Source: Todiramphus chloris collaris
Taxonomy: Eukaryota > Chordata > Aves > Coraciiformes > Alcedinidae
Assembly (NCBI GenBank): GCA_025345505.1
Contig: JANVCC010000012.1
Coordinates: 382,013-446,012 of the forward strand
Reading direction: 5' to 3'
DNA: 64,000 bases
Numbering within the stretch: position 1 is the first letter of the stretch; every line of letters begins with the position of its first letter. A program made the translations under genes and the position numbers. This document shows positions 1-41,124 of this stretch, piece after piece. Below the pieces are notes generated by a model that worked only from the letters and a program-made list of their open reading frames with translations, had not been told where the DNA came from and searched no databases.

Positions 1-77
1 GAGGAAAAGAGTCTACCAAACCAGAGGTGTGATGCTGAGCCCACCACTGTGTCCACCTCCCCAGTCCCTGGTGTTAC

Positions 78-291
78 CCAGCTTCTTCTTGGCATCCTCG
101 AGGGCTTGCTCAAAACTGAGCCGGGCGTCAGGGTTGGGGAACTCAAAGATGAAGGACTCAGTGCCATCAGCTTTGGTAGTGCTGAGCTCCACCTTGTTGG
201 GAGGGAATGCCATGCTGAAGGACAGGGATTGCTTCTCTGCCAGCTCCCGGTGGATGGCAGCCATCAGGTCCTTGATCACATCGTCCAGGTT
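78..291 (-). CDS. ARHGEF17: ARHGEF17 exon 11 (last exon inside the window)
   Basis: The exon has 214 bp, starting [20 protein letters not shown] and ending [22 protein letters not shown]. Acceptor CCCCAG|AAC; donor CTGG|GTAACA leaves phase 1. The reading frame must continue in exons to the left of base 1, which would encode the C-terminal propeller-like region. Confidence 0.95.
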
Positions 292-3200
292 CTGGGGATG
301 GAGACAAAACTTCAGCTTTCAAGGATAGGCCACCACCAGCCGTATATGTTATGCTGACCCCATCCATCCCCAAGCATAGTTCAGAGTCTGCCCCAGCCCT
401 CCTGTGTCTTTGAGGCTGGTGGCATCTGGGCTCTTTGAGGACATTCATGGCCACCAGCCCTTCCACAGGTTCTCCCTTCCACAGAGAACGTCTTGGTCAG
501 TCCTACAGGGAAGGTGTCCACCCGGGAGACAGCATCAGGACCACCATCCCCATACCTGGTGGGGGAAGCTGAGGGTCTCTGACAGCTTGCTGACTTGCCC
601 CAATGTGCTGAGGTCTTCATCCAGGCGGCAGATGCTTTTCTGGATGCTCTCCCGGTTGGTGGCTTGCGAGGCACCTGTGTGGGGACATGTGCGTGGTGTC
701 AACCCCTTCCTCCCTGGCACTACACAGGGGAACCTTCTCCCCACCAGCCAGGGGTGAGCGATGGCTTTTGCGGTGGGATGGGACACTACAGCAGGCAGTG
801 ACAGACCTTTGACAATGTCCACATCCTCCAGTGGCAGCTTCCAGAGCAGTTTGTACTTGCTGGCAGTGTCAATCACGCTGGCAGCCGTGTACCTGTGAAG
901 TTGGGCAGGCTGAGCTGAACCCATGTCCCCAGCACCCTAGAGCCAGTCCAGCCAGCGAGGACAACCCTAATGACATGGGTGTCCCCCAGGTGGTACTCAC
1001 AGGCTCATGGAGCTGCGACGGAGGGAGCCTGACTTGCGCTTCAACGTGGTGCACACCAGCAGGTCCGTGAAGAGGAAGAAGGAGCGGTCCTTCTTCCCAC
1101 CCACTGCTTTCTGTGGAGCAGTGGGAGATACCAAGGGGTTAGCATCCAGCATCCCCACTACCAGCACTGGGAGTGGCCCCTGCCTCGGTTTCCCCACACA
1201 TGACTTTGGCATAGAGAGGCTTTGGGGTGGGAGGGTTCCTCACGAGGTTAGAAGGGAACATGGGTGCTATGGCCATGCAAGCAAAACCACAAGGTCCCAC
1301 TCACAGGGAAGCATCAGGATCAAGGGAACGCCAGAACCCCCTTGGTCTCCACCTCCAGCCTCCCCACCCACCCCTGGTCTGGGGCTGCTGTGGTTTCTTC
1401 TGGCCTCCTGCCTTCTCCTGAACCAATCTTATTTTTCTCCACAAACTTGGGGAATTTTATATTGTCCCCATCAATCTGTAATCCATCCATCCATCCATTC
1501 ATCCATCCATCCATCCATAGCCTCCCATGGGTACACAGGCATCCCACCACCCACAGTCATAGCCACCCACTGCCCCATCCAGGGTATGGTCCCATGACAG
1601 CAAGGGACCACCCTGCTCTTACCACTTCCACGACCATCTCCTGGCGCAGGAACCTGCGGAGCGGGGCCTGGAGCTGTGAGGACAAGGAGACTTCTGAGTT
1701 GGGAGCCCCAGGGGGGGTGAACTGCATGGGCTTTGTCCCTGCTCCTATGCCCCTCCCCCTCAGAAATGGCACCCCAGCCCCTTCTCAAATCCTCAGGAGC
1801 CCACCAAGGCTAAGTGATGATGCACCCGGAGGAGAAAATAAGGGGCCCAACCTGATGTGACCCAGAAAGAGTAAAAGTTGTTGAGTTTTGGAAAGAAGGA
1901 AAGACAAACTCCGTGTAAAGACCCCCATACGTACGTCCTCCATCCCTTCAATGTGGGACTCAATCTCCTGCACAATCCGGGCATTCCTTTCCACCTCCTC
2001 TGCGCTCTTCATGCCCTTGTTGATCCTCTCGGCCACTTGCTTGATGTTGCGCTGAGCGTCGATGAGGAAAGGGTGGTCGGGATGGTCCTCTGGTGTGTGT
2101 TTCAGCAGGTCCTAACATGGGAACACAGCTGGGATGTTACCATGGGCAAAGCCTGGGCATCGGTGATGCCATAACACCCCCAAACAAAAGCCCCTAATGT
2201 GCTCTTGCTCCTGGAGATGGAAACAAGCTCTGTGCAGGAAAGGTTTTGCAAAAAAACCCAAAGCCTTGAGCTTTGGCCACCACTGGCCTGGTCTTTTCCA
2301 CCACGAAAGAGGCTACTAGCTCCTGAGTGTACATCATCACCTTGCATGGATACATGAAACTCATCACTGGAAATGTTCAAGACCAGGTTGGATGGGGCTT
2401 TCAGCAACCTGATCTAGTGGAATATGTCCCCGCTCACGGCAGAGATGTTGGACTAGATGATCTTATAAGGTCTCTTCCAGCCCAAACCATCCTGTGATTC
2501 TGTGAAAGCTCACTCCACCAGCCTCAGAGCCAAGGAAAGTGACCCTGGCATGGGGAAACTGAGGCACAGAGGGTGGCAGTGTGACTAGTCTCAAAATGGC
2601 ACTGTGATGTCCAACCTCCTAGCAGAATGGTAGAGCAGAAGGGAACTGCACACCCATAGGGACATGCTGGGGGTGACAACACAGTGACAGTCCTCAAAGT
2701 GACCATCCCTGGGAGGGGATCACTGCGTCAAGGGATGGGAAAAGGGGCCTGGAAAGACATGAGACTCCTAAAAGCTCCTGTTACATGGAGGCGAGGAGGA
2801 GTTGTCTCACCTGCTCATGACACAGCACAGATGCCCTCCTGCCTGCAGCCTCCTGCCCGCACCTACCTTCACCAGCAGCTCATATCGTGGGATCCTCTGC
2901 ACTGGTTTGATCATCAGGTCGGACAGAGCCTGCTTCTCCTTGTTCTCCCGCATGCTTTGCTGCAAAACACCAGAGAGGGACAAGGACGGCCCTGTTAGGT
3001 GGGACACACCAACACAGGACCTGCAGCAACACCCATTTAGGTTTGGGGTGACTCCTTTTTACACCATTCAGAGAGACTCCAGTTCATCCCAACCTGGCCT
3101 CTTTGCAATAAAACCGAGAAGAAGGTGGGGGGGAAAAATCCCATCTGACCACAGACTACCAGTTTATTCACTTTAACCCCACCCTGCCCCTCCAGCAGAC

Positions 3201-6200
3201 TGTGGACCTTGGCCAGCATCTATGCAGAGAGGAACCAGGACCCACCTCCAGGAACTTCATGAATGCCGGCCGGGCTTCCTTGGCGATCCTGACAGCATCC
3301 TTGGCATTGAGGAAGTTATCGATGTAGGCAGAGTAGATGTTCACCAGCACGTCCTTGGAGAACTGGGAGGGGAAAGGAGAAAAGGGGGATAGGTCCAACA
3401 TAGACCCCACGGGTAAGCCTGGGAGAAGCTGGCCCAAGGGTTAATCCTGGCTCTGGGCGGGCGTGGGGAGGATTCACCCACCCCCCTCTATTTTTCAGCC
3501 CTGACATTTCTGCTCCTGAGGCAGAAACGCCGAGCTGCAGACCTGACCGGTCACCGCAACACTCCGCCGTTACGCTAAGCAGACGGCGGGCCTGGAGATC
3601 GTCTCCTGTTCTCCATCCCAGGCGTGCTTGGCCCACGTTTTAATCACTCCCCTGTCTCCTGTTTCAAAACTTCTCTTGCTGGGGCTGTGCCCAAGAGCGG
3701 GAACACCTGGGTTCCCCAGGGGAAATCCACCCTGCGAGGACCTACCGACTGCACGAGGAGGTCGCCCACTTTCTGCTTCTCATGCCAGTTCTGCACGCAG
3801 TCGTGGATCTGCTCCAGGAACTGCTCGTGGTGCTCCAGCAGCTCAGGGATCTGGTCGAAGATCTCATCCACCAGCGATGGGTCACACAGCAGCGAGTTCT
3901 CTGGCTGCTTCAGTGGCTTCATGTAACCCTGTGGGGAAGGTACCGGGGTTCCTGGAGGTTTCTTTTCCCATCCCCTGCCCCCCAGTATTAATTTTCCCAT
4001 CCCCCCCCCCCCCCCCCCCAGTATGAATTTTTCAACCCAGGTCAATATGGAGATCGGTGGCATCCTGCAGCAGGGGGTTCCCCTAGTGAACGTTGGGTTG
4101 TGGGAACCACTGGAAGGACCAGACGGCACCATGTCCCTGCAGCTTTTGCACCCCAGCATACCTGGGTCCCATCCCTCCTGGTGCATCCCTCTGGCAGTGT
4201 GGGGGGTGGGACAGGTCTGCAAGAGGAACCCTAAAATGATGGCATCCTCTGTCCCCCAACCACAGCTTTCAGAGGCTCCAAATCTTTGATGGCATGAGCC
4301 ATGGTCACCTCCATCTGCTGCAGAACATGACCTAGGTGGGAAATCATGGCAGCGCAACCCTGGGATCAAAAAGTTGGTGCATTGCCAGCGGGATTTAGGG
4401 TGTTTGGGATCAGGAGGATCTGGAGCCAGCAGGGTGGATGCACTGGATGAAGCCCTGGACCATTCTCCCCAGCAGCCTCTCTCGGGCATTGGCTGGTAAG
4501 TGATGCTCAGGGCCAGCAGGAAAAGCAGGTCCTCTGCAAGGCTGGCTCTGCTACAAAACCCTTCTCCCATCGAAAGGGGAGGGGAAGTACCCTCAGAAAC
4601 AGGAGAGCTGGATTTGCAAGGGATGCAGGATGAGGAAGATCATCTCAAGCCTTGCCACCTCCTCAGTCTGACAGGTATGGGGTGCTGGTGTCTTTCAGGA
4701 TGTTGGGAGGACCATGGAGCTGAGTGGTGAGAACAGGACCCACCTCAAGCAACTTCAGACTTCTCAATCCAAGTTGGCGAAGGAGGAGTCATCCCCCAAG
4801 AATGAGGGTCCTCAAGCTGATGGTGGGCATCTCATGGAAACCACAGTTAGAAGGGCCAACACTTTTCCGAAGCACAACACCTTCCCGAAGCACCTACCCC
4901 ACTCCATATGCCCTACTGTGGCCAACATCTCCAGCAGAAGGTGGGTTGGGCTGTGCTATGAATCCCACCCATCATGAAACTGAGGGAGCAAGGACCAGAT
5001 GGCAATGAAAAGCACTGAAGACAGACCCCACCTCAGCACACCGGGAGAGCAGGCAGGGCTTGCCCATGCACCATCTGGCTTTACTGGAAGATGATGCTCC
5101 AAGAGGGTCCTTGTCCCTGGTAGTCACCATGCTACCTGCCACCAGGCCAAGTCATGGATCCAAGATCCTTGTCCCAGCTGAGATGGGGAGCTGGGGGCAT
5201 CTGGAGCCCTACGACCTATCCCCCAGAAAGCCATGTCCCACTGGTTACGCTGTGCCAGGATGTGTTCCATGGGCAAGAGTTCAGGCATTAACACCTCGCA
5301 GCTCCCACTTGCGTCCAACCAGTTCCTCCAGTCTGGAACTGGTGAGCCCCAGCAAGGCTGTTCTCTCCAACCACCCTCCTGTCCCACTTTAGAGGAAAGC
5401 ACAGCCCACGGGACAGCCTCCATCCATGCCAAGACCAGCATGGACACCACCTGACCCTGAACCCCATATGGCTTCCCCCAAAATAGGTCTCAGAGCCAAG
5501 GTCCTCTCACACCTCCAAGTCAACACCTGCACTAGAGGCAGCCTCAAAGGGTCCTTCCCTCCTGCAGCAACATCTGGCAGAACACATCCGGGTGCACCAT
5601 GGGGGCATCCTCACAGGGGATTTACAGGAAAAGCCCGGTGGATGTTGAGATGATGTCTGCCCCATGCCCTTGTGGCAACGCCCAGCAGATGTCCTACAGG
5701 CACTGCTTTATATTGCAGAGAGCAGAGCTCTGACTTTTTTTTGGTGTTTCTACCTGCAGCGATGTGGTTGGACAACCCACACCTACACCAGCCTAGTGAC
5801 CTAGTCTCCAGGGCGTTGACCACCATTAACCTTCATTAACATCTGAAACGTGGGGTGGACCCTCCGGCCAGGCTGCTCCAGGGGGGTTGGAACCAGCTCA
5901 GTAAAAAAGGGACTGAGAAAAAACCCTTAGCCCATGGTGCAGGTGATGACACTGAGTAGAAAATGGGGGGTCACAGGACGGGGGATGTAAGGGGTCCCCC
6001 ATCATGGGATGGCCACCAGCAACAGCCCAGGCAATGGGGTGCAACATGAGGAAGAGACAAGTATGGGACAAGTATGGGGAGGAGCTTCAGGACATGATAC
6101 CTGCAAGGTGACAACCCACCAGGAACATTACAGGCTTGATCTGGGAGACAGAGGTGGCCCCCACACCCTCTTCTTGACACTATTGCTACACTGCTGCCAC

Positions 6201-9200
6201 CTCTGGTCCCACCGTCCCCAACATCCCCGCTGTCACCCGTCCTCAATCCACCCCGTGCCACATCGGTACTGGCAGAGCACCCGTAGCTGGGGGTCTGACC
6301 TGGGGTCCCAGGGACAGTGACAAGCAAGGGACAGTTACGCTGTGACGTGGCTTGGGGCGTCACGTCCCCGGCCGTGCCGCGTTACCTGCATCAAGGTGCG
6401 CAAGGACTCCACATAGGACTGCTCCGTGTCCAGCAGCGTCATGATGACGTGTTTCCTCATGTCCTGCCCGGGTGGAAAGAAAGACAAGGTGAGTTTTTTG
6501 GGGGTGACACGATGGAGGGGAGCTACGCGGTGGGTGTTGTTGCCGGCGTGGGGGCTCAGCGGGGAGGCTGAACGCCGGAGGAGCCCGGCTGGCGTCCAGC
6601 TCCCCTCCGCTCCCTCTCCACCCCGATGGAGGAATCTGGGAGGATTAGGAAGTACATGACACCGAGCGTACAGAGACGCCTGGTTTCCTCCTCGGCCGCG
6701 TCAGGAGCCCGCCCTGGATCTCACAGCCCTACATGGGTCGGTCCCGACGCCCTCCGTCTCTCCCGCAGCTCCGCTCAGAGCAGTCCCGTAGGAATTCACC
6801 TCCCGCCCAGCACCCCGGGCACCCCGGCGCTGGGCTGTGGCCCCACAGGATGGGGATTAATGGGGTGGTGAGCAGCACAGGAAGGTGGTGGCGTGGGATG
6901 GTCCGTCAGCCTTGGGAAGCAGATGGGTCGAGGTCTTCTTGGTTGTGGGGCTCAGAGACCCCCCCTTACATACAGCACCTGAGGGGATGCCCCTGCAGCT
7001 CAGTCTGGGGGTGAGGTGCTCCAGAACCCAGGGTGCGAGACACCCCAAAAAGCTTTGAGTGCAGAGATGCTCCAATGGCTCTGAGTTCAGAGGCACCCCA
7101 AAAGTTTTGGGTGCAAGATGCTCCAAGGGTCCCGAGTGAGATGATAGCCCAAATGTTTTGGGTGCAGACATGTTCCACAGATGCAGAGATATCCCCATTT
7201 TTTTTTGTGGGGATACACTCCAGAGACTCTTAAGTGCGAGATACCCCAAAAGTTTGGGGCAAAGAGATGCTCCAGACCGTGAATGTGAGATACCCCGGAA
7301 GTGTTGACTGTAGAAATGATCCAATGGTCCTGGGGGCAGAGATACCTCAAAAGTTTTGCATGTAGAGGTGATCCGGAGATACTGGGTCCAAAGATACTCC
7401 AAAAGTTCTAGGTGCAGAGATGCTCCAAGTGCCCTGGCTGCATAGCTATCCCAAAAGTTTTGCATGCATAGAAGAGACCCTGGATGTGAGGCACCCCAAA
7501 TGTTTTGAGTGTGGAGACCCTCTTCTGGCCCTAGAAAAGGAGATGCTCCAAGGTACTGGGTATGGGGACTGCAATGGTCCTGTTCATCCAAAGGCCCCTG
7601 GTGAAGAGACACTCCAAGCTGTGGGTGCAGGGACACCCCCTGCAGAGACACCCCAAGCCGTGGGTGCAGGGACACCCCAAAGTCCCAGGGTGCCTAGACA
7701 CCCCTAAGACACATTTGGACACCCCAAATGCTGTGGGTGCAGGGATGATCCAAAGGCCCCAAGGAAAGGGATCCTCTAAAGGTCCTGAGTGCTCAGACAC
7801 CCCAACAACCACGGGTGCAGAGCTGTCCCACCTGGCCACCACAGCACACTGGGACAAGATGCAGAGATGACCCAAAGGCCCTGGGTGTGAAGATCTTGCA
7901 GTGGACCTGGGCTTACTAAAAGGGTCCTGTTAATGGTGACAATCCAAAGGCCAGGGGTGCAGGGACACCTCGAATGCTGCAGGTGCACAGATGCCCCAAA
8001 GCCCTGTAGACAAAGGCCCTCCACAGGTCCTGGGTGCTAAGTCACCCCAACAGTCCTGGGTGCAGAGATGTCCCACCTGACCACCACAGCACACTCCTGG
8101 CCTGCTGCTGCTCCAGGGGCTGCTGGACACACCAAACCTCTGTGTTACCCATCTCCTTGTGGGATGTGCCCATGTCCCCCAGCCACATGGGGCTGTGGGG
8201 GGACACATGTGGGGACACATGTGCTGTGAAGCTGCAATGCAATCACAGAAAGAAGCTTTAGCCCAACCATCCTTACCACGGATGGAGGCCACCATCTCCC
8301 TGGTAGTCTCCAGGGAGCAATAAGAAGGGATCCTGGCCAGATCCTGCTCAGCACTCGAGAACAGAGCTGTTCCTGAGTTAACCCACTCGCCCCCCAAGCT
8401 GACCCTGGTCTTTTCATCCAAGCAAACTGATGCATACAGCCAAATATCACGGTGATGAGTCCAAGACCCCCAGGAAATCTGCCCCCTAAAACACAGCGAT
8501 GCTGGGGGATACTGGCTGAGACCTCCCCACTTTGTTCCAGCCTGGAGGTTTATTAACACTCTCACTGCTATATTAATTTGTTGTGATTACGGGTGGAAGG
8601 GTGCCCACCAGACAATGGGCTTTAGGGCTACAAAGCTTCTGATGCCCCCCCCACCCTGCCTCAGTTTCCCCAACCCTCACACAGCCTGTAGATCCCCATC
8701 TCAACATAATGCCCCCAGCATTTTCTGGAGCTCTCCCAGCTCAGGACCAAAGGAAAAGGCTGGATTGCTGAGATGAACAGGCTCAGCACCACATGCCGCA
8801 CCGCTGGCTGGGGATTTGCAGCAGTTGGGAGACGCAGGATGAGGCCCAACTGTTGACCAGGGGATTTTTTTCCCACTGCTACAGCAGTGATATTATTCTG
8901 GCAGGGGGACATTCCTGCTGGGATGAGCAGGACCTGGGGGTAATGCACCATCCTGGTAGGGAAAAGCAGTACTCAGGCGTGGGCAGGATGCGTCCCACCG
9001 CATCCCTCACCCCAGCAAAGCCTCTCCCCCGCTGGGCTGATGCTGCCTCCCACTTCAGTCTCCACCTGCTCTCCTTGAGGACCCCCCACTGCACCTTGGC
9101 CTCATCCTGCCTCCCCTGAGATGCACAGCACCCTCGGGATCAGCCCCCACCATGATGGGAATTGAGGTATTTCCTCACACCGGCAGAACCCTCCATGGTG

Positions 9201-10178
9201 TAAATCAGCACTGGGGGGGAGGGGGGGGTCAGCAATGCCTTCAGCTCCACCATCACACTCTCCGGGTGGCAGCATCCCCCCCTCCCCGCGATCCAGAGAA
9301 CCCGAGGTGGGTCGGCAGGCTGAGGATGAGGATGGAAGCACCGTTGCCACGGCAATCATGGTCTAGACCCCGCAGGTGCCAGGTTCTGCTGGGCGCACAC
9401 GTGTCCAAACATGACGCATCCATGCACCCCCCCCTAGAGAACACCCCCCTCCCCCCATTACCCCACCAGACCCCCCTCCACCGCACCTCTCCAATTCCCA
9501 GGACATCCCACCCCACCCCCCCCACCCCGGTCTCCATCATCCCTTTGCGCATCACCTCGGTACCACCGCGACTGCCGCAACCCTTCTCCGGCAGCTCCTC
9601 GGCCACCCCGCCGAGCCCGGAGGTGGCGAAGGCCGCGTCGATGCCGTCCCCGATGTCTCGCATGTCCTCCAGCGCGATGGTGAACTGCGCCAGAGTCCTC
9701 ACCATCTGCAGCATGCGGGTCCCGGGGGTCGGTCCGTCCCACGCGGCCCAAGGAATCCAAAAAATTTTATATATATATATATATATATATATGTATGGAG
9801 AGAGAGATACCCCCCAGGTGCCCCCCCCTTTTAAAAGAGCCGGAACGCCGCGTTGGGATGCAGCGAGAAGGGAAATAAAATCGAGGAGCTATTTATATCA
9901 ATAGGGTTTCTCTGTGTGTCAGTGTGCATATATATATATATATATAAATAAAGCCCTCCTGCAGAGCGGCTGCAGGGTGCGTGCGCTTGCGTCCGTGGCG
10001 GCACACGGGTCCCCGGCCCCGGGTTCTACCGAGGCGCGGGCAGGCGAGAGCAATAATCGGGAGATGGAGGCAGAGCCTTGCCCACACACACAGAGACACG
10101 CGCGGATGCAGGCAGGGACGGATCCTGCTGAGGGGATGCTGGTGCTGGAGAAGCTTTGCCCAGGAGGATGCTGTATTG

Positions 10179-10212
<34 letters not shown>

Positions 10213-13200
10213 GATGTTTTCTTAGGGCATGTGATTTTGGGGGAGGGAGGGGTATAGATGATGCTGTCTTGGGGTGCTCAGCATCCTTGGGGTCTCCATC
10301 CCTATCGAATGTCCCCCTCCCTGACCCTGCAGACAAGAGAAACTGAGGCATGGAGCAAACCTTCTCCCTCCCCCCACAACATTATCACCTTGGCACCCAC
10401 ATCCCTGCTCGCCGGGTGATGCACCCTGCCCGGATCCATTTGTAACACTCCCCCCCTGCTTCGTTAATTAAATCTAATTAGCCGCTCACCCTGTTTCCAC
10501 AGCAACGGCGTGCAGCAGGGCTGCATCCTCCCATTGCAGCCAGGAAATTTCCTTTTGGTAATGAGGATGATGAGCATCTCACCCTGGGGAAAGTGCTGGG
10601 CTGGGGGGGGTGGGGTGGGATGGGTGCATCCCAGTCCCCTCAGCACCCTCGCTGGGGTGCATGGCAGAGAACAGCCAACTTGATGCATGTAATGAGAGAG
10701 GAGCTGCAGCAGCCTTAAATACACCCCAAGACTGGGATCAGGGAGGAGGGAATGGCAGCACCCACCATGGGCATGATGGGTGCCTGAGCTGCACCCGGTA
10801 CTGCTAATTGCATTAGTGGTAATGAAGCTGTTCGCAAAGGCAACAGCTCCTGGAACTTCTTCTACAGTACCAGGGTCATCCCAGACCCATTTCTGTTGCA
10901 ATCTCAGACCTGTCTGGATTGCAATCCTGGACCCATTTGCGTTGCAATCCCAGATCCATTTAGGTTGCAATGCTGGTCCCATCTGGGTTGCAGTCCTGAT
11001 CTTTTCTGGGATCCAATTCCAGGCCCATTTCTGTTGTAATCCCAGATCCATTCTAGTTTGCAAACCCAGACCCACACGGGCTGCAACCTTGGGCTCATCT
11101 GTGCTGCAACCCCAGATCCATATGGGTTGCAGTCCTGGGCCATGCTGGGTTCCAATCCTAAACCCATTTGGGCTGCGATTCTAAACCTATCTCAGCTGCA
11201 ATCCCAGGTCCATGTGCATTGCAATCCTAGACTCATCTAGGTTGCAATCCCAGGTTTTTCTGGGATCCAATCCCAGGCCCATTTCAATTGCAATCCCTCT
11301 TTTATTTGGGTTGCAATCCCAGACACATTTCTCTTGCAATCCCAGACCCACCTGGGTTGCAATCCCAGACCCACTTGGGCTGCAACCCCAGGCTCATCTG
11401 TGTTGCAATCTCCAGACCCATTTCTGTTGTAGTCCTGGGTCCACTGGGGTTGCAACCCCAATCCATTTGGGTTTCAATGCTAGGCCTATTTGGGCTGCAG
11501 CCCCAGGCCCAGGCATTGCAGTTTTAGATCCTTCTGTGTCTAGACTCCAGATCCACTTCTATTGCAATCCCAGCCCCGTGTGGATTGCAGAACTGGTCCC
11601 ATTTGCGTTGCAATCCCAGATCCATTTGGGTTGCAATGCTGGTCCCATCTGGGTTGCAATCCTGATCATTTCTGCGATCCAATCCCAGGCCCATTTCTGT
11701 TGGAATCCCAGATCCGTTTAGGTTGCAAACCCAGACCCACGTGGGCTGCAATCCTGGGTCCATCTGTCTTGCAGTCTCAGGCTCATTTGGGTTCCAATCC
11801 TAGACCCATCTGGCTGCAATCCCCGACCCATCAGGGCTGCAATCCCAAACCCATTTGGTTGCAATCCTGGGCAACCCTAAACTGCATGTTTGGACCCATT
11901 TGGGCTATAACTCCTGAGCCATGTGGGTTGCAAAACCAGGCCCACTCAGTCTGCAATCCCGAATCCATATGTATTGCAACCACGGGCTCACTGGGGTTCC
12001 AACCCCTGATCCACTCAGGCTGCAATCCCAAACCCATTCCTGTTATAATCCCAGCACCATCTGGGTTGCAATTGTGGGTCTGGCTGCACTGCAATCCCAG
12101 GCTCATCCAGTTGCAATCCTGGGCCCAGTTTGGTTGCAGTTCTGGACCCATCTGAGCTGTAACCCCAGAGCCATCCGGGTTGCAATCTCAGCCCCGCTTG
12201 GTTTGCAGTCCCAGGCTCATCTGGGTTCCAATCCCAGACCCATCTGGCTGCAATCCCAAACCCATTCCTCCTGCAATAATCCCGAACCCATTCCTCCTGC
12301 GATCCCTGCCTCGTTTAAGGTGCAACCCCATCCCCAGCCGGCCTGCGACGCGGTGACGCTGCGACGCCGGAGCCCCGGCCGCTCCGCCTGCAGCAACGCC
12401 CCCCGGCCCTCCCCCGACATCGCGGGAGGGGGATCCCTGCCTTTGCAGAGGGTCTTTCCCCCCCATCCTGGAATCAATCCCGTCACGGAACGCCGCGCAG
12501 GAGCGGTGTGAGTAGGTTAACTCCGCCGGCTACCCCTGAGCGTTGGGGTGATGGGTTTAAGAAACCGTCCTCAACCCCCCACCCCAGGTTCTCCAGATGA
12601 TATCGGGGAGGAAGGATGAATGGATGGATGGATGGATGGATGGATGGATGGATGGATGGATGGATGGAGAAGGGTTAAGCCCGTCGCTGCCCAGACCGGG
12701 GATGGAGCCAGGCTGGATCCCGCTGTGCATTCAGGGGCCCAGCGGAGGTCATCTCGCCATCACCCAGGGAAGAAGAAAGCCGGAGCGATAGCGGCCCCGC
12801 CGGCCGCCGAGCCCGGACCCCCCTGTGCGCGGCCCGCAGCCCACAGGAAATTCCTGGGAGTGTTTGGCCGCTCCAGCAGCGCTGCCTATTTTTAGGGCCG
12901 TCTAAAATATGAGCCGGTTATTTTTAGCAGCACGGCTCTTTGTAAACACCTTTACATTTCCTTTCGGACCGGCCTTTTTCTTTTTTCTTTTTTTTTTTTT
13001 TCTTTTTTTCATTTTTTTTCCCCTCAAACTGGGCATTCCCTTCCCCGGAAAACCCCAAACCCTCCCAGGAAAAGCATCCTGATCCCTTGGGATGAAGCCA
13101 AGGGGTTCATCCCCTATCCCAAAGGCTTGTGCCAGTGTTGTGCTGATGCTCCCAAAATCCCAGAGACAGAGCAGATCCAGCACTGGGGATTTTGGGGGGT

Positions 13201-16200
13201 GACATGGCCACACCCCAAATCTAGGATGGGGGGCTCCGAGAGGGTGTTTTCCCTCTTTTTTTTTTTCCTCCAGCATTAAAAACCAGAAACATCAACGTTG
13301 TTTGGCCTCCCACCAAGGGACAGAAGCTCCCCTAGGCTGCTCTATTTTATTTTTTAATTAAAAATCCAGGTGTGAATCCAACATTTTGGTTTTTCTCACC
13401 TGGGAGTAGTGCTGTAGGAGGAGCTTGAGCACCCCTGGGGATTTTAAAACATCTTAAAATATTAAAAAAAAAAAAAAGTTTAAAAAAGGCCCTGTCAAAT
13501 TGTGTCCTGCCTTCACCCCCTGCAAACAAAGAAACAGTGATAGAGGAAAGTCCTAAAAACTTCATTTTTTAAAGAGAAATTAGTATTTTAGGGGAAAGGG
13601 AGATCAGGAATGTACATCTATGAGGAATTTCAGCCATCAAGGTACCCTCTAGCCTTGAGCCCAGGCTGAGACCGTGCACAGATCAGTGCATGTAATGATG
13701 CCACTTGCCTCTGAGGACTTCCCCCCTCCGCCCTCAAATCCTGCTGCTAGCAGGAACTGGGTTGCTGGAGCCAGGGACGTGGGGACAGGTGTCACACATG
13801 CTGTCATCACCCAGCTGGGATGCTAAAATCACATCCCATGGCACGGGGGAATCTCCGTATCCTCAGAGACACCATTTCACCCTTCCGGAACCGCAACGCA
13901 CAGTGTTTCTCTGAGGTCAGCGGTGTAATGAGTTGTGTCAGGGCTCGGCCATGCCCTAGGGGAGCTGCAGTGGGGATTTTGACTCAGAGACTTCAATTTG
14001 ACGAAGAAAAACTATGGCTTTGGGAAAAATCTGGAGTGTTTTGGATCAGTCTGGGAGTGGGATTTGCCACTCTGGGCCTTGCTGGATCATCCCACAACTG
14101 CTGAAGGAGGAGCTAGCACTGCTTCAACCAATGTTATTCCCACCCCTCGAAACTGTGCCAAAATTTTAAATATAAATAAATACAACTTGTTTCCCCCCCA
14201 TTACAGCTTGTCCCCGCTGTTGGCTCCTGATGTTCCACACTGCTGGGGGCTGGGGATTCTCTAGGGTCTTGTAGTAGAGTTGTTCTAGGAGCAGCCTGAA
14301 ACTCAGCAGCTCCTTGAGACTCCCATTCCCAGTTTGGAAGGACGTCAGGGAGCTGGGATTTCTGCACCTTTTCTTACCCCAGATGTTTCTTTCCCAGGTC
14401 AGATCCCACTAGAGGGAGCTGGGACATAGTGGGAACCACTGTCCCGTGGGGAGAGTCCCCTGCCCCAGGGAGCTTGCTGTGCATGGCAAACTCCCAAGCT
14501 TAACAACTTTAACGCACCCTTGGCTTTATTTCTACCAATACCCTGGAAAAAAAGGCTTGGAAACAAAACTGGACCCAATTCCATCCCTTCCAACATGTCA
14601 AACAAACACATCTGCAGCAAATGGCATCATCCTGACACGTAAAACTTGCTCGCGCAGCTGGAAAAGCCCCTGGCTGGCACCATCATCCAAAATAGGATGA
14701 TGTGATGTGTGATGCCATTACTTCCAATTCTGTATTTCCTCAATTGCTTGGTTTCTGGCAGGAATATCGCTTGTAAAAACCACATTATCTCCTCTCGGGA
14801 TGTTCTTAAGCAGGAAGTTTGATTGGGATTTTTAGGGCTTTCAAGGGAAACCCATCCAACCTTGACCTCAGGATAAATGATGCTCATCCGTGTCTGTGCC
14901 ACGTGGGCAGCCACCAGACAGGGGAAGACCTTACTTTGCTGGGTACCAGCCACTGCGATCCCTGGGTACCAACCCCTTTCATCCTTGGGTACCAATCTCC
15001 TCCACCCCTGTGCATCAGTAACTCCTATCCCTGGTATTTGTCTTCCCCATCCCTGATTACCAGTAACCGCATTGCTGGGCATGGCAATCTATTCCTGGGT
15101 ACCAGTCACCCCATCCACGGCACCAGCCACAACCATCCCTGGGCATCAGTCAACGAATTCCTGGGTGCCAGTCTCCTCATCCCTGGGTACCAGCCACTGT
15201 CACACCAGGGTACTGGTCATTTCCATCCCTGGTATCAGCCACCACCATTCCTGGTACTGCCATCCCTGGGTACCAGCCATCTCCACCACTGGTACCATCC
15301 CTCTCCATCCCTGGACAACAGTCACCTCCATCTCTGGGTACCAGCCACCTCCATCCTTGGGTACGAGTTAATCTATTCCTGAGTACCAGTCACCTCCACC
15401 ACTGATACCAGCCACCATCATCCNNNNNNNNNNTCCTGAGTACCAGTCACCTCCACCACTGATACCAGCCACCATCATCCTTGGGTAGCCAGTCACCTCT
15501 ATCCCTGGTATCAGCTACTGCCATTCGTAGGTATCACTCACCTCCATCCCCTAGGCACCAGTGAGCACCACCTCTGGGTACCGGTCACCCCATCCCTGGG
15601 TACCAGCCACATCCATCCTTGGGTACCAGCCACCTCCTTCCTGAAGCATGTCACCATATCCATGGGTACCAGTCACCTCCATCCCCGAGTACCAGCCAAC
15701 ACCATCCTTGTGTACCAGTCCACTCCTTCCCAGGGCATGTCACCCCAATCCCTGGGTACCAATCACCTCCATCCCTGGTACCCATCTCCTCATCCCTGAA
15801 TACCAGTCATCCCATCCCTAGGTCCTAGCCCCTTCCCTCCCCGGGGCCACCAGGCCCCATGTCCTGAAGAAACCACCCTCCACATCCAAGGGCAACACCC
15901 CAGGGGAGCACGAGGACCTGTGCCACAGAAGCGGGACCGTGCCCGAGCCAAGCCGACGCCGCACAGTATTACGTCTCAGGCTACATTCCCTCCCCGCCCA
16001 GCCACTCGCTCTTCTCCCACGGGTAAGAAAAGCCAGCACTGTTTTCCGAAGCGTAACTTCTTGAAAGGAAATAAGAGCATAAATCAGCAGCTCTGATTCA
16101 GCTCTGCTTCGGTTACTAATAATACTCTTGTGTTTATTCACAGTCCTGGGGCTGGAGATGTTTGCTTTTCCCTCGGTCGTGGCTTTTCCCAGGCTCCCAG

Positions 16201-19200
16201 CTTGCTGAGAAGCCTTGATTTGTTCAGGGATGCTGCCATGGAGCAATCCGACAGCAAAACTGCCTCCGGGATGGGGAGGAAGAGGAGGAGGAGGAGGAAG
16301 AGGAGGAGGAGAAGGAGGGTGGCTTTGGCCCCAAACCGACATGCTGCGAATTCAGTTGTTTTCCCTTCTTTGACTTCTCGGCTGCAGTGATTCAGCCGGG
16401 GAGGACACAACCTGGCTGTAATTCTGCTTTGTAAGTGTGAGAAAAAGCCAGGATTCAAAATTAAAGGAGTTGGAGAAATTTTTTCAGGAGGGTGGAAGGT
16501 TCCCAAACATCCTAGTGCCATCCGAGGAGTGGTGCTGGTGGGGTGGGAAGCAGGGAGACAGCAGGAGGTTCATTTCCCGAAGCAACAAAAAATTCATCCT
16601 CTAAGTGCGCTGCGAGGCTTTTCCCATGGGATTTTCACTTGAAATCAGGGTTTGCATCACTGGCGCCGAGGTCCAAGGAGTTCCCTGCCCCCCTTTGCAA
16701 AATACGAGGTTCGGAGTCATGCTGGTGCATCTCAGGGCATGCCCCCTCCTCCACTGGCAGCACCTCATGGGTCTCCCCTCCCCATGCCCCTTTCCTACCC
16801 AATCTGTGATGCTCACCCCAATTTACTGCCCACTGTCCCCTTCTACCATCCATCCCCCAGCACATCTGCAGAGCCCTTGGAAAACTCGTGTTGCCACGGC
16901 TCAGGGCGCTGCGGGGGGCTCGCCGGCCCCCCGTTTCCAGCCAGTCTTTGCCGTGTCCCAGAGCAGCTTTCACCAAATATGGAAGGTTTTTTTGGCCTCC
17001 GGTTTTCGGCACGCAGGCCGCGGCCCAAGAGCACAGCTTTCCAGATGCTGAGGTCAGCCACGCTCTTCTCCCCCCCTCCTCCCTCTCTGTCACCTCTCAG
17101 TGAGCTTGGCCCTGCAACCACCAGGCAAGGGGTACCACTGCCCTCCAACTTGCCAGCACCCCTGGGTCCCCCAGCAGCTGCTGGCACCCCACATCCCGCA
17201 GCACCCCAAAGCAGTATCTATTGAGATTTTTTGCTGGGGGGAGAAGGAAGCTGTGGAGGAGAAGGATGCCCAATGCTGGCATCCCTTAGTATCGTCTCTG
17301 GGTGCTAGCCCTGCACATGTGGGTAAGAGGTGCCCCAGGTGCCTGGTGACATGGGGCGTGGATCCAGGTGGGGAGGGTGCAAGTAAACTTGGGGTAACCA
17401 GGAAGGTGCTGGCCTGGCACCCAGGGTTTGATGGACACCAGGAGCCATTTGGCACCAGGAGCTCATGAGCACCCAAGAGCCAATGGTTACCAGGAGCCAA
17501 TGGGCACCGAAGAGTCAAAGGGAACCCATGGGCAACAGGAGATGGTGAGCACCCAGGAGTTGATAGACACCATGGAGTTGATGGGCATCAGGAGATGATG
17601 GGCACCAGAAGCCAATGGGCAGCTGAGAACCAAAAGGCACCCAGAAGCCACCTGACATCAGGAGCCAGTGGGCACCAGGAGCTGATTGGCACCCAGGAGC
17701 TGATGGGGCCAGGAGCCAATACACATTCGAGAGTCAAAGGGCATCCACAAACTAGTGGTCACCTAGAAGCCAATGGGCATCAATAGCTGACAGGCACCAG
17801 GAACATACAGGCATGTGACAGACAAAAGGCATTCAGGAGGCACTGGTCACCCACAAGACAGCTGGCACCAGAAGTCACTGGGCACCAGGGGCTGATCGGC
17901 ACCCAGGAACTGATGGGGGCCAGGAGCCAATGGGGATCCACACTTCAAAGGGCACCCAGGAGCCCATAGCTATCCAAAGAGCACCTGGGAGCTGATGGGC
18001 ACCCAGCAGCCATTGGGCATCAGGAGCTGATGGGCATCCGGGCCTCCATGTGGAACCAAAATTCCAGGAGCACTAGAAGCTAAGAGGTATCCAGAAGCCA
18101 AAGGACACCCAAGAGTTGATGGATGCTCAGAAGCTGATAGATGCATAGGAGCTAACCCTGTAGTCCATGAGCATCCAGGAGCAGACAGGCACCAGGAACT
18201 GGCAGCATCAAGGAACTTATGGGTGAGCTGTTGGGCACCCAGAAACCAATAGACACCCAGGAGTCCATGGGCACCCAGAAACCAATGGGGATCCCATGGG
18301 CACCCAGGAGCTGATGACTGCCCAGGATCTAATAGGTTACCAGGAGTCCATGGGCACCCATCAGTCAATGAGCACAAAGAAAAGGATAGACACCCAGGAG
18401 CCAACAGACACCCAAGAGCTCATGGGCACCCAGAGTCCATGGGCACCCACGAACTGACGGATGGCCAACATCCAACAGGTACCCAAGAGTCCATGGACAC
18501 ACACAAATCCACATGCAACCGGGAGATGACGGGCACCCAGGAACCAACAGGTACCTAGGAGTCTGTGGGCACCCACAAATCCACAAGCAACCACAGTATG
18601 ACAGGCACCCAGGAGCTGATGGATGCTCAGGATCCAACAGGTATCAGGAGCCCACGGGCATCCAGAAATCTTCAAGCACCCAGGAGCTCACAGACATGCA
18701 GGAGCTGATGAGCACCCAGGATCCAACAGGTACTAGCAGTCCATGGGAACCCACTAATCATGAGCACGCACGAGCTGATGGACATTCAAGAGCTGACATT
18801 CAGGAGTCCATGCACACCTAGGAGCCAATGGGCACTCAGAGGCCAACAAGTACCAGGAGTCCCTGGGCACCCACAAATCCACAAACATCCAGGAGCTGAT
18901 AGACACACAGAAATTGATGGGAACCCAGGAGCTGATGGACAAACAGAATCCATAAGCCCTGAACAGCCTATGCCATGCCCCTGCCCTGGTCCTTCTCATG
19001 CCCCCCCCCCAGCATCAATCCATGCCCTTCTCAGCATCTTGGGTGCAACCACCAGAAGAAGACCAACTTTGTGCCCATGCCAGCCTCCATTCCCAGTGTC
19101 ACCCATGCCCCACAGACACCCACCCCATGCTTGGTGGGTCCCCTTGCCCAGCACAGCTGCAACAGGCAGGAGGGAGGTGTGGGGGGTGGGGGGTGGAGAT

Positions 19201-22200: not shown

Positions 22201-25200
22201 CCCCATCACCCCTGCAGGGACACGAGTCTCTCCACAGCCCTCCAACAAAGCTCGTGCCGAGTCTGTCCCAACCTCCCACCATTGCTGCAGCCCTGGCACC
22301 CTGCCAAGAGCCTGACCTTTGGGCCACGCAGCCTCCGGGCCAAGGCCAGCCCCGGGTACTGAGCTCAGCCCAGCGCTAACCCTCTCAGTCCAGGGACACA
22401 TCCTGCCCCATGGCCCCCACTGCAGGGCACCCCCCAACCCAGGGGGTGCTACCATGAGGGTGTTTGGGCTGAAAGGATATGCCCATCCCAGGTGGTTCAT
22501 CCCCTCTGTCGTGGTTTGCTACCTAATTAATTAGAGGTTTTGAACTAAAGCAGGGGCAGGAGCTGGGGATAAGGGACAAGGAGCAATGGGGACGGCTCTG
22601 AGTGACACCGGGTATGTCCTCTGCATCACACAAGGGTGCTAAAAACTCTGGAAGCAGGGAAGGGAAAGGGCAAAAAATGGGCAGAATTAAGGAGGTTTTT
22701 GAACTGTGGTAAAAAAGAGTAAAAAATGGGAAGAATTAATAGGATTTTGGAATCAGAGAAGGAAAGGGGCAAAAATGGGCAGAGTTAAGAGGATTTTGGC
22801 AACAGAGAAGGGGTCAAAATGGGCAGAGTTAAGGGGATTTTGGCACCAGGGAGAGGAAGGCACCAAAATGGGCAGAGTTAAGGGGATTTGGGTTGGTTCA
22901 CCCCCTCGCTGTGCTGCTTGGCCCTGTGCTGGTGGTCCCGGTGTCAGTCCATGCCACTGAAAGGTAGCATCACCTGCAGGTCGCCCCGATGTCAGCCAAC
23001 ATCTCCTTGCTCCATCCCACCCTCAACCTCCCTCTGAAGGGTGGTCTGCCTGCATGCCTCAGTTTCCCCCCACCCCAGAGTTTCGCTGAGCGTGGCAGAG
23101 CCAGGGACGCAAAAACTGTGCAAACCATCGTCGCGAGCACTGGGAGAGGAAAGCCAAGACTCATCTGTCCCCATCCTCCCCCCTCAGTGGCGTTAATTAC
23201 AGATTTCCAGTAACACCAAGACATGAGAAATCTCCCAGCCATGGCCCAAAACCTGGTTTCTGTGGTGATTTACAGAAAGGGAATGGAGGGATAAACAGGT
23301 CCAAAGATGCCAAACTTTGGCCAAAGAACATATGGATCATAGATCCAGCCATTGGATCATGGCCATGGTTGGCCATGGATCCAGCCCTTGAGCTGTCCCA
23401 AAACTGAGGAGGAGCTTCTGGAGGCAAGCTCAGAGAGAGGATGCTCAGGAGGGATGGGGGGGGGATGTGTTACGCAAGCGTCTCTGGGAACATGACCCTG
23501 ATGTTTCCCTCCAGGGATTCCCCCTCCATCCTCGGTGACTTTTCTGGGGTGTGCCTGCCCTGCTCAGGGAGCAGCAGGTGGGGAAGGCAGCGGCCGGGGC
23601 GCTGGGGGCCATGTTCCCACGACTTCTCCGCTCCCGCGAGGTGCTATATTTAAATCAATATTTTCCTGTTTAATCCGACTGCTGTTAAGTCAACAAACAG
23701 AGCAGAGCAGAGAACATACCTCATTTTCCATCCCGTGCTGGATTCAGCCATAGGAGAAAAAAAGATTCAAGGGGTTTCTAGCCTGGCATCCTGCTCATAC
23801 CTTCACTGAGCAGCAAATGGACTCCAAATCCACCCCAAATCCACCCTAAACACACCCTTGCTTGGTGTTGGGCTGCTGCACATGCACGTGCATGGATGTT
23901 CACGTGTATGCTGCCCATCCCGGTGGTTCACGGGATGCTGGAGGCAGAAAAACTTCTCTATCTCCATTTTTTTTTTTTTTTTGGTTTGTTGTTTGTTGGG
24001 GTTTTTTTGCTTTCTTGAAAGCATCCTTTCTTCCAGCAGTCTTCATGCTGTGCGCCAGAGCGGGACACACTGCTAATGGCTCCCAGGGAATTAAAAGCCT
24101 CATGCCCAGCATCATTCACAGGGCGAAGGAGTTCTGCACCCAGGACGGCTTGGCCAGCTCCAGCCCCATGGAGGATCTCTGGAAAGCACCCAGGACAAAC
24201 AGTCCTGTCGACGAGGGAGAACAGCACGTTACCTCTCCCAGTTGGGATGCGCCAGGCAGCTGAACGCGGCAAACAGCCGGCTCACCACCGCCAAAGTCAC
24301 TGCCAAACCATGGGGTCTTGGAAAATATCCTGGGAGGATCCTGCTGCAGGGATGCTGGATCCGAGGAGAATATACTGGGGGGAAAACGCTGAAGGGATGC
24401 TGGTCCCCAGGAGAATATCTCCGGGGAGTGATGCTGCAGAGATGCCAGACCCCAGGAGAATACCTTGGGGGAAAACTGCTGCAGGGATGCTGGATCCCAG
24501 GAGAATATCTTGAGGGGGAATGATGCTGCAGGAATACCCAGCCACAAGAGAATATCTTGGGGGAGCAAGATGTATTTTGGGAAATAATATTTTGGGGAAG
24601 TGTCACCACACACCCATTGTTTATCCTTTCCCATCACCGTTTGCTGGAGAGGGACACCTGGATGAACGGACCATCACCATGATGTGGGATGGATGCCCTG
24701 ACACCCCCAAATCCCCAAGCAGTGATGACCATCTCCCCAAGCAGATGACCGACATGGTGACGCCAGCCCTCTCCATTGAGTTAGGGAGGGGAAAAATAAA
24801 AATAATAAAAAATTAAAGCTTATTTCTTTGCTGTTGGTCAGGGAGCACATAAATCTCTGCTCCCAGCCAGCCGTGCCGGTGCCAAGTTATATCCGGTCCT
24901 TGATGCTCTTGCCTATAATTAAAGCAACTCCCTTGCATGGCTTGGTCCCCCTCCACCCCCCCAGCCAAAGCTGGTGCCATCTGAAATAAAACATCCCAGC
25001 TCCACTATATAATAAATCAAAAAGAGAAATAAAAATCCTGGTTCCAGTTATGCTATGGCTGCAGCACAAAGAAATTCAAAGGCAGGAGGGAGATTTGAAG
25101 ATACAGCTGCAGTGTTGCCCTTAAAAGGGAAAATTCGCACCCTCTTCACCACAGACAGTAGGTTCAAGCAAGGTGAGGAGCAACATCCCAGGGGTCTGGC

Positions 25201-28200
25201 CCCCTGGGGTGGTCCGTGTCCCTGAGGTGATGCTTGGCCAAACCAGGGTCCCAGCTTCCAGACCCCAACTCTGGAGTCAGTAAAAATCCCTTTGAAATGA
25301 CCCCAAAGTGACAAGAGTTGGGGGGTGTATCTGGGTATGGGGTCAGCAGAGTGTCCCTGAGACTGTGGCCATCACGGCGTGGGCACCATCCCTGGGGCAC
25401 TGCAGAGACCTGCCTGAATAAGAAGTATCTCTTTATAAATTAGTAATATAAGCTACACATTATGTAAACTTAACATATGAATAATTTAGCAAGAGATACT
25501 TCTTTATAAAGAGATGCTGCTGGGTGCAGTACCTCGCCTTAGGGACCTGTTGATGTCCCAAAGGTGCTGCCAGCCATGGTTCTGGGAGGTTCCTTGTTAT
25601 CCTGTTTAATTATAATCCTTGATGCTTCAATAGCACTTTTCACCCTGAGGTCAGAGAGGAAAAGTGCCTTGCTCTAAACTGGTAAACAATGCTGCAAAAT
25701 TCACTCAAAATTGTTTCCAAGGATGTTTTACAGAGGAGCCACGAGCTCTCTGTTTTTGGCTACCAATGGCTGTTGTCCAACAGTGGGGACAACAGCCAGA
25801 GAAGGAACTGGATGGGTGGCAAAGCTCCCCAGGAGAATATTCTGGGGGGATGCTGCTGCAGAGATGCCAGACCCCAGGAGAATGAATACCTTGTGGGGAG
25901 AATGTTGCAGGGATGCTGGACCCCAAGAGAGTATCTTGGGGAAAGGTGCCTGACCTTATGAGAATATTCTGGGGGAATGATGCTGCAGGGATCTAGATTT
26001 CAGAAGCGTGCAAAGAAAAACACCCCTGCTCCACACAGCTCTGCCCCGGCCAGCAAGGGTTACACAGCTGGGCTCAGCCCCGGGGACTTCACGCTTGGCT
26101 GCTGGCGGCTGTTGGAAGGGAACAGTCCAGACCGAACTCTTAAATCGGCATCAAAGCAGGGCGAGAGAGCCCTGCCAGCACCGTTCCCGCAAACTCTCGG
26201 CTCATCCCCCGCGGGAACGGGTATTTCTGGGCTTTGCCCGGAGCTATTAAAAGCCCTGTAGGTGCCAGCACTGCTGTGCCGCAGGAGGAGGTGACGCTTC
26301 CAAGCGTTTCCCAGCTCAAACACTTGGAGCCCAAGTCCATCTTCAAACAACAGGAGAGGGGCCAGCAAAGCCAAAAACCCACCCCAGGAAAGACCCCAAA
26401 GCACACAGTCGTGCCTCAGGGTGAGCAAACCGCCTTTGCATCTCCCAGAACCGTTCATTCTTCCACAGATGGGATAAAACTTCACCCATGGATAAAATAC
26501 TCAGGGCATGCACAAGAATATTTCCTCCTGTTTTCCCACGCCACTGGCACGGCAAAGCCCATGGTCCTGGGTGGAGGGATAGTGATTTTCTGGGGGGGGA
26601 ATTGCCAGTTTGCTCAATAAGCAGTCTGAGATGTGAAATCCCAAGCAAAAAGATCATTTAGTCCCTCCCTGACAAGGAAAAGGTAATTTTTGGTTCAGCA
26701 TCTCAGGCCCGGACAGGAGCACCCCCGTTCACTGGGACTATGTATAGCATTGCCGGGAGATGCTGTATTTATATATAGCATGAAACATATATCTATAAAA
26801 CCACCTTCCACCAAAATTTGGTGCCATTTAACTTGAAAAGTGCTATTTCCCACCCAAAAATCACTGTTTTATTGGGGGATTTGCTCCTACAAACAAGAGC
26901 TCATCCCCTTGGGACCATCAGAAAGGGCTGGGAAGGCTCTTGGCCGCCCGGCAGCCCATCCGTGGATGGGAATTTGTCCCCAGTGAGATACGTGATGGAC
27001 CCCCAAAGTCACCAACACTTTGGGGAAGTCACGTAGCCCATGGAACGAAGGTGTTTTTAGGATGGATGGGCACTTACCACCTGTGGCTTGGTCCTGGGGC
27101 TGTGTTCATCACGTGGCCGAGGGCACAGGGGCAGACGGGGTGGTGGGGCAGCGGGCGGAGAGCGAGGTCCATCCCCAGGACCGGGGGATGCATCACCTGA
27201 GTTGAGGGCCAGCATGTACCGCTTGGTGACATCCTCCAGCGAAGGAGGTTGGAGGGCTGAGAAGGATTTGCTGGGTGAGCGGCTGGCAGGCAGTGCAGGG
27301 ACGTGGCTGTGGTGGCTGGAGGGCACAAGCGGCTCAGGGACAGTGATGGGGACAAAGGTGGCAGGCTCACTGGTGTGACGGATGTGTTTGGTGGCCGGGT
27401 GGCTCTTGGCAAGGACGGCAGGTGCTGGAGGTGGCTGGTTTTCCTGGTGAGCTGCACGGTTGGAACGCTTCTTGGAGCTGCGCCGGGCGATGCGAGGGGA
27501 CAACACATCAGCCAACTTGGGGTCAAATCCATAGCCGCGGCCAGTACCTGGTGCTGTTGGTTGTGCTGAGAGGATGGGTTCACTGCTGGACGGTGGGATG
27601 CTGGGCTCCAGCTCACTGATGGCCTCACCAGGACCTTCGAAGGCACCGGCTGGCAGCTCACTGCGGCGGCTGGGGTCGCTCAGCGACTTCTTCTTGATGG
27701 TCTTGCCGTTGCCCTTCTCATCAATGAGCTTAGCCATGGCACCAGGCTGGCTGACGATGGTTCGGATGAGGCTGTTGTAGTCTCGTGGCCCATCGCTGCT
27801 GAGCGACAGGTCACTGCCTGCGCTGCCTGCACTGCCTGCAATGGCTGCGGGTTGGGGGATGCCCACCTTGGTGCTCAGCGAGCCCAAGAGGTTGCTGTCA
27901 ACAGAGAACTTCTTTGACTCCTCCGCCACTGAGCATCTCCGGTGGGGCATGGGGTCGCTTAGGGAGCGGTAGGTCTCGGTACCACCCTCACTGCCACCCT
28001 CCATCCCATTGGCACCCGCTGAGGGAAACTTACGTCGGCGTCTCAAGCTGCCAGGGGTGCTCGGTGTCTCGGATTTGCCAGCTGGAAGGTCTTCAACCAC
28101 TGTTGCTGGGTGAGCGGGCAGTGGTGTTTCAGTGTCGCCGGCTGCCAGACCAGCACTGGGTATTGTCCAGGCATCCATGGCTTCGTGCAGGTCTTGGAAG

Positions 28201-30008: not shown

Positions 30009-30408
30009 NNNNNNNNNNNNNNNNNNNNNNNNNNNNNNNNNNNNNNNNNNNNNNNNNNNNNNNNNNNNNNNNNNNNNNNNNNNNNNNNNNNNNNNNNNNN
30101 NNNNNNNNNNNNNNNNNNNNNNNNNNNNNNNNNNNNNNNNNNNNNNNNNNNNNNNNNNNNNNNNNNNNNNNNNNNNNNNNNNNNNNNNNNNNNNNNNNNN
30201 NNNNNNNNNNNNNNNNNNNNNNNNNNNNNNNNNNNNNNNNNNNNNNNNNNNNNNNNNNNNNNNNNNNNNNNNNNNNNNNNNNNNNNNNNNNNNNNNNNNN
30301 NNNNNNNNNNNNNNNNNNNNNNNNNNNNNNNNNNNNNNNNNNNNNNNNNNNNNNNNNNNNNNNNNNNNNNNNNNNNNNNNNNNNNNNNNNNNNNNNNNNN
30401 NNNNNNNN
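30009..30408. other. Assembly gap (400 N) hiding the ARHGEF17 start
   Basis: The gap begins directly after a (GGA)n run (serine codons on the minus strand). The sequence beyond it (30409 on) is AT-rich and not promoter-like. The ARHGEF17 start codon, any CpG island and the transcription start should therefore lie in the missing DNA. The round length suggests a size estimate rather than a measurement. Confidence 0.9.
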
Positions 30409-32235: not shown

Positions 32236-33176
32236 AAGAAAAGTGGTGATATCTTCATCAATGACATGAACAGTGGGATCAAGTACATCCTCAGCAAGTT
32301 TGCAGATGACACCAAGCTGAGTGGTGCAGTCAACATGCTGAAGGGATGGGATGTCAACCAGAGGCACGTGGACAAGCTGGAGAAGTGGGACCATATAAAT
32401 CTCATGAGGTTCGACAAGGCCAAGTGCAATGTCCTGCACCAGGGTTGGGGCACCTCCCAGTATCAACATAGGCTGGGGAGGATGAAGGGATGGAGAGCAG
32501 TCTTGTGGAGAAGGACTGCAGGGTGCTGGGGGGTGAAAAGCTGGACTTGAGCCGGCAACGTGCACTCACAGCCCCGAAGCCAATGGCATCCTGGGCTGCA
32601 CCCAGAGCAGTGTGGGCAGCAGGTCAGGGAGGGAATTCTGCCCCTCTGCTCTGCTCTGGGGAGACCCCCCTGCAGTGCTGGGTCCAGCTCTGGAGTCCTC
32701 AGCACAGGAGAGACAGGGACCTGTTGGAGCAGGGCCAGAAGAGGCCACAGCAATGCTGAGAGGGCTGGAACCCCTCTGCTGGGAGGCCAGGCTGAGAGAG
32801 CTGGGGCTGTTCAGCCTGGAGAAGAGAAGGCTGCAGGGAGACCTTCTTGTGGACTTTCAGTATTTAAAGGGGCCTGTCAGGAAGATGGGGACAGTTTTTA
32901 GCAGGGCCTGTTGTGACAGGACAAGAGGTGATGGTTTTAAACTAAAAGATGGAGATTCAGATTCCAGAGAAGGAAGACATTTTTGATACTGAGGGTGATG
33001 AAACCCTGGCCCAGGTTGCCCAGAGAGGTGGTCAATGCCCCGTCCCTGGAAACATTCCAGGTGAGGTTGGCTGGGGCTCTGAGCAACCTGCTCTAGCTGC
33101 AGATGTCCCTGCTCCCTGTGGGGGGGTTGGACTGGATGAGCTTGAAGGTCCCTTCCAACCATTCTGTGATTCCATG
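32236..33176 (+). mobile_element. CR1 LINE, 3' part including end of reverse transcriptase
   Basis: The longest CR1 copy in the window. It starts in the reverse transcriptase region, with the catalytic box FADDTKLSG encoded at about 32299-32325. It then continues through the usual CR1 phrases (TGGGCAGCAGGTCAGGGAGG, GACCCCCCTGCAGTGCTGGG) to the terminal CCATTCTGTGATTCCATGATTC. The frame is degraded by indels and stops, so it is a dead copy. Confidence 0.92.
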
Positions 33177-35469: not shown

Positions 35470-35530
35470 GGCAATGGTCCTCCCTGTTGATGTCCTCTGT
35501 GCTGTTGTGGTTCCTCAGCAGTGCCTGCAA
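35470..35530 (-). other. P2RY6: P2RY6 5' UTR part of the coding exon, with acceptor
   Basis: On the minus strand CCTCTTTTTCAG|TTGCAGG gives a pyrimidine-rich acceptor, placing the exon start at 35530. A second AG seven bases further (TTGCAG) could act as an alternative. The 61-base leader contains no upstream ATG. Confidence 0.7.
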
Positions 35531-41090: not shown

Positions 41091-41124
41091 CTGGTCCCGT
41101 TCCTCTCCCGTGCGCGGCACTTAC

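Follow-up and report, generated by a model that had tools for sequence, protein, structure and literature searches.

Intron 1 of the RhoGEF gene in the window (the whole 64,000-nucleotide stretch of DNA that was analysed; contig C3, 382013–446012, of a 1.17-Gb assembly) contains a 53-codon open stretch with strong coding character, situated inside a CpG island and in phase with exon 2. The gene lies on the minus strand, and we take it to be ARHGEF17 from the human sequence and the gene order. Judging from the sequence features described below, a second ARHGEF17 start within intron 1 is probably real, and we hold with somewhat better than even confidence that 9556–9714 truly serves the gene as an alternative first exon with coding content, under a CpG-island promoter. 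An internal promoter with an alternative first exon had been proposed at this place by the first-pass annotation. Our analysis adds the coding character and the CpG island to that proposal, whereas use as an exon, the role of the TATA-type motif and the exact donor are parts that we infer.

The features of the locus are listed in Table 1. Canonical exon 1 ends with ACCAAGCCACAGGTG, followed by GTAAGT, at 27078 (peptide ...KPQV, phase 0), and the border of exon 2 at 6463 reads CCGGGCAG/GACATG. A 400-base N gap (30009–30408) lies on the 5' side of the exon 1 frame, and given this gap the N-terminal coding sequence of ARHGEF17 is probably incomplete in the window. The Pfam RhoGEF domain was detected in two of the three DH-region frames scanned, in one of them below the curated cut-off, and a Pfam scan of the own frames of exons 1 and 2 gave no match. 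The best PDB match of the exon at 3928–3746 was the breakpoint cluster region protein. A P2Y-type receptor gene is present at 34480–35514, upstream of ARHGEF17. Intron 1 also contains long degenerate minisatellite arrays (10878–12306, 15098–15830, 17431–18939 and 24320–24564). A plus-strand open frame at 31915–32550 includes a FADDTKLSG stretch, which resembles a CR1-type LINE reverse transcriptase; Pfam returned nothing for this frame, although a single window in it reaches the laxer G+C coding cut described below.

Table 1. Positions of the candidate exon, its surroundings and the flanking ARHGEF17 exons in the window.
Feature	Positions	Strand	Remarks
ARHGEF17 exon 2	6386–6463	-	DMRKHV...TLMQ, phase 0; regarded as the beginning of the DH domain
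Intronic CpG island, proposed to act as promoter region	9351–10250	.	maximum CpG o/e 1.06
Candidate donor GTGATG, phase 0	9550–9555	-	PWM 6.34; G-run-rich intron start
Candidate alternative first exon, 53-codon coding part	9556–9714	-	ends ...GGTE; GC1/2/3 0.68/0.49/0.89
Competing phase-0 donor GTGAGG, following codon 4	9697–9702	-	PWM 9.21
Candidate 5' leader without ATG	9715–9866	-	putative start, assumed ~30 nt past the TATA box
Candidate TATA box TATAAATAG, flanked by two (TA)n runs	9889–9897	-	putative function
ARHGEF17 canonical exon 1 (part)	27078–30008	-	long open frame; donor GTG/GTAAGT, score 9.73

The succession of motifs from which the candidate had been drawn up was recovered in full. 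The TATA-type motif TATAAATAG is found at 9897–9889 on the minus strand, and occurs twice on that strand of the window and not at all on the plus strand. The 183 nt between this motif and the ATG form the CpG-bearing leader that had been described, with 12 CpG, no ATG and a (TA)n run at 9768–9796. The first ATG, at 9714, opens 53 codons that run to 9556 on the minus strand, and the donor GAG/GTGATG leaves phase 0, matching exon 2 at 6463. The candidate exon is therefore on the ARHGEF17 strand, upstream of exon 2 and in phase with it. The nearest in-frame stop upstream of the ATG is a TAG at 9891, and the context of the ATG is poor (C at −3, C at +4).

Such a succession is not in all its parts rare. 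A TATAWAWR match, followed within 300 nt by a first ATG, at least 40 open codons and a donor scoring at least 6, was found at this single place on the two strands, and the same chain arose in 2 of 60 shuffles of intron 1. An ATG with at least 53 codons and a phase-0 donor is common by itself: for donors of at least 6.3, the minus strand of intron 1 holds 6 distinct ones, and the mean in shuffles was 3.3 (n = 30). The latter counts favour the view that the frame is unused: it would have arisen by chance, or be what is left of a former coding sequence, in a CpG-rich part of the intron where a TATA-like motif lies among (TA)n runs and a GT of moderate strength ends the frame. In line with that view, the frame stayed open in 7,494 of 20,000 dinucleotide shuffles. 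The pattern of G+C by codon position stands against it, and we regard an unused frame as doubtful.

This pattern was examined in every 159-nt open frame, of either strand, that lies outside the masked exons (1–5000, 6386–6463, 27078–30408 and 34477–35515). Under a strict test (GC3−GC2 of at least 0.377 and GC3 of at least 0.85), with a cut that was taken from the candidate frame and thus favours it, 24 of the 22,553 open frames scanned passed, and all 24 are in the candidate frame, spanning 9514–9753; no other locus of the window outside the masked exons passes at this cut. Relaxing the cut gave 52 frames in four loci, with 41 of them at the candidate locus, all in frame; the other loci are two in the minisatellite region and the plus-strand open frame near 32.4 kb. 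When the 159 nt were shuffled with dinucleotides preserved, a value as extreme was reached once in 20,000 trials in the same frame, and twice in 20,000 in any open frame of the six. The pooled coding pieces from exon 2 onward have a similar pattern (0.57/0.31/0.81). The sensitivity of the test is modest, since it passes 87 of 307 windows of 53 codons from exon 2 onward, 0 of 842 in exon 1 and 2 of 278 in the P2Y gene, and it therefore counts as evidence by its specificity. Coding periodicity is the feature of the locus that lies well beyond chance.

A codon-usage score was equivocal. The candidate frame scored 23.7, a value reached or exceeded by 137 of 25,139 open frames and thus not unique to the candidate, which agrees with an unused frame. 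The training set of the model comprised the P2Y gene and, as its larger part, exon 1, of which 24% is proline or serine. Antisense frames scored 26.2 (same stretch) and 32.1 (9503–9661); despite these higher scores, a plus-strand reading was rejected, as it fails even the laxer GC3 cut and has no Pfam match. Among the coding tests we gave most weight to G+C periodicity, because the shuffles remove the effects of composition and of dinucleotides.

The periodicity also bears on where the exon begins and ends. The 14 codons before the ATG have GC1/2/3 of 0.64/0.86/0.79, and codons 1–43 have 0.70/0.42/0.95, so that the signal sets in sharply and coding-type sequence begins at ATG 9714. The final 10 codons ahead of 9556 lack the coding pattern (0.60/0.80/0.60), which comes back in weaker form in the 23 codons past the donor (9555–9487; 0.70/0.43/0.78). 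The 3' border is consequently not supported by the coding signal.

Donors were scored with a textbook vertebrate matrix. The score of 6.34 at 9556 is equalled or exceeded by 4.65% of the 3,314 minus-strand GTs, and compares with 9.73 and 7.39 for the donors of exons 1 and 2, respectively. Two other donors outscore it, namely 9703 (ATG/GTGAGG, 9.21), inside the frame, and 9487 (7.07, phase 0). Together with the pattern that returns as far as 9487, they suggest that the stretch could be an ARHGEF17 coding exon with other boundaries, either a first exon cut at 9703, which would leave MLQM only, or at 9487, or an in-frame cassette exon. With an acceptor at 9705, 9684 or 9666, the cassette would measure 150, 129 or 111 nt, respectively, and fit between phase-0 exons, but the pyrimidine content upstream of these AGs (0.53, 0.41 and 0.59) is below that of exon 2 (0.76). 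Further points against other boundaries are that the coding signal begins at the ATG and continues past 9703, that the CpG island points to a promoter, and that the sequence past 9556 is rich in G runs, with 19 GGG starts in 100 nt against an intron 99th percentile of 14. G runs near donors can act as splicing enhancers. Taken together, we think other boundaries unlikely. An internal exon from an acceptor at 9827 was also considered and rejected: at 272 nt it puts the frame out, and a stop is met.

CpG islands were defined as merged 300-nt windows with GC above 0.55 and CpG o/e above 0.6. The 53-codon stretch sits inside the island at 9351–10250, whose maximum o/e of 1.06 compares with a median of 0.17 over 1,261 windows and is surpassed only by the island of exon 1 (28901–30000, 1.19). 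This setting suggests a promoter, and thus an alternative first exon, with promoter activity as the predicted element. Scattered start sites are usual for CpG islands. At the locus, 17 of the 18 TATAWAWR matches derive from the two (TA)n runs, and we consider a scattered-start CpG-island promoter and a TATA-directed one equally likely. A sigma-70 promoter scan is inapplicable to vertebrate DNA. Two further CpG islands, at 12101–13000 and 40701–41400, are without coding periodicity at the laxer cut and are possibly promoters.

An intronic CpG island could serve any transcript, and phase alone ties the donor at 9556 to 6463; the stretch might accordingly be the first exon of something else within the intron, either a small gene of its own or a noncoding transcript, that is not joined to exon 2. 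Several results speak against this. Neither the peptide nor its longer frame has a Pfam match, 6000–31000 contains no Rfam match, and the candidate frame fits exon 2. Moreover, the lax test, whose reach is limited to open stretches of at least 53 codons, picks up no further locus on the minus strand from 9496 to 6464. A nested gene is highly improbable in our estimation.

The peptide had been said to belong to no recognized family, and searches of Pfam and PDB were likewise without match. Comparison with viral contigs (IMG/VR) and prokaryote genomes (GTDB) returned 43 and 520 short-pattern stretches, respectively, and no confirmed relatives, although collections of this kind have little bearing on a vertebrate peptide. 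A search for the peptide in paper text found no match. The lack of relatives in Pfam, PDB, IMG/VR and GTDB is what an unused frame would give. Against a relic, no parent copy of the peptide was found elsewhere: in the 1.17-Gb assembly it was detected, up to E 10, in one place, on contigs C2 and C3 (a loose first look, in which 2 candidates were scored). AlphaFold2 run on the single sequence predicted one helix, residues 2–31, with a mean pLDDT of 69.6. The heptad a/d positions are hydrophobic in 8 of 9 cases, a result equalled in 56 of 20,000 shuffles, and the hydrophobic moment of residues 1–31 is unremarkable, being matched or exceeded by 7,716 of 20,000 shuffles. A fair guess from the predicted model is that the peptide forms a short coiled-coil or packing helix in front of the DH domain.

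The region is also present on contig C2 (14.12 Mb), 99.75% identical over 25.3 kb to that of C3 (14.12 Mb). C2 probably represents the second haplotype, even though the assembly totals no more than 1.17 Gb. The two contigs have no differences in 9343–10150, and their 53 residues are identical. With 42 SNPs in 25.3 kb, about one would be expected in this stretch, so that the two-contig comparison is low in power and constraint is unprovable from it.

If 9556–9714 is the alternative first exon that we favour, promoter activity, splicing, protein and function of a short ARHGEF17 may be pictured as follows. Minus-strand transcription would begin upstream of 9714, either from the TATA box or from scattered sites, and the 53-codon exon would be spliced from 9556 to 6463. 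The ~1,000-residue N-terminal region would thereby be replaced by a short, probably helical peptide immediately ahead of the DH-PH-propeller part, and the product would be without the actin-binding domain and the N-terminal inhibitory contact. Such a form would be diffuse and off at rest, with the C-terminal part still covering DH-PH, and G-beta-gamma would switch it on away from stress fibres.

These expectations draw on published work on ARHGEF17/TEM4. In PMC8703085, the N- and C-terminal parts of ARHGEF17 are each described as inhibiting DH-PH, and G-beta-gamma as freeing a DHPH-C construct. PMC3404065 reports that the TEM4 N-terminus bears an actin-binding domain (residues 81–135 in human), and that removal of the N-terminus leaves TEM4 diffuse, with a much lower activity on RhoC. 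From what the two papers report, a peptide-DH-PH-C isoform should be diffuse, quiet at rest and responsive to G-beta-gamma. We tentatively propose, as a reading that the sequence makes possible but less than even in our judgement, that an internal ARHGEF17 promoter, so far undescribed, is present in birds and perhaps in sauropsids generally, which would exchange the actin-anchored autoinhibitory N-terminus for a heptad-patterned helix and yield a RhoGEF uncoupled from actin, held by its C-terminus only and gated by G-beta-gamma. The activity of ARHGEF17 hangs on two things, its location at actin and inhibition by both of its ends (PMC3404065, PMC8703085); if real, an isoform that lacks the N-terminal end would be a natural separation of these controls. 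A further consequence would be that a short form of ARHGEF17, represented in mammals by p164, whose cDNA was judged truncated, may have come about in another lineage in a different way.

A short ARHGEF17 isoform of this kind was not found in the open literature, as covered by titles and the openings of abstracts. ARHGEF17 is named as a predicted target gene of the chicken lncRNA MSTRG.30304.1, with nothing on the candidate exon in the available part of that paper (PMC8141850). The word "isoform" is absent from PMC9249204, and the isoform passages in the accessible part of PMC13215057 concern other proteins.

Full-length ARHGEF17/TEM4 would share with the short form identical exons from exon 2 onward, and with them DH-PH and the propeller; it differs in starting in exon 1 and carrying the actin-binding domain. 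According to PMC3404065, only full-length TEM4 was seen in multiple human and rodent lines, which argues against a broad short form in mammals; birds are outside that sample. A shorter ARHGEF17 product was likewise once proposed in p164-RhoGEF (KIAA0337), of 1510 residues. The same paper treats it as an N-terminal truncation of the full-length sequence, not as the product of an alternative promoter (PMC3404065), and with its length of 1510 residues p164 would still include some of what exon 1 encodes.

The closest likeness among RhoGEF genes is with the delta-Kalirin isoforms of KALRN, in which, as given in PMC3048553, a separate promoter produces isoforms minus N-terminal parts, with loss of the Sec14p domain and four of the nine spectrin-like repeats. 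There, the use of the promoter was measured at the RNA level, and Western blots detected the isoforms, whereas the ARHGEF17 candidate is known from sequence features. Unlike delta-Kalirin as described there, the ARHGEF17 candidate would gain as its new N-terminus a 53-residue peptide without known family. A RhoGEF isoform from a second promoter is thus of a kind already known, for example in KALRN (PMC3048553).
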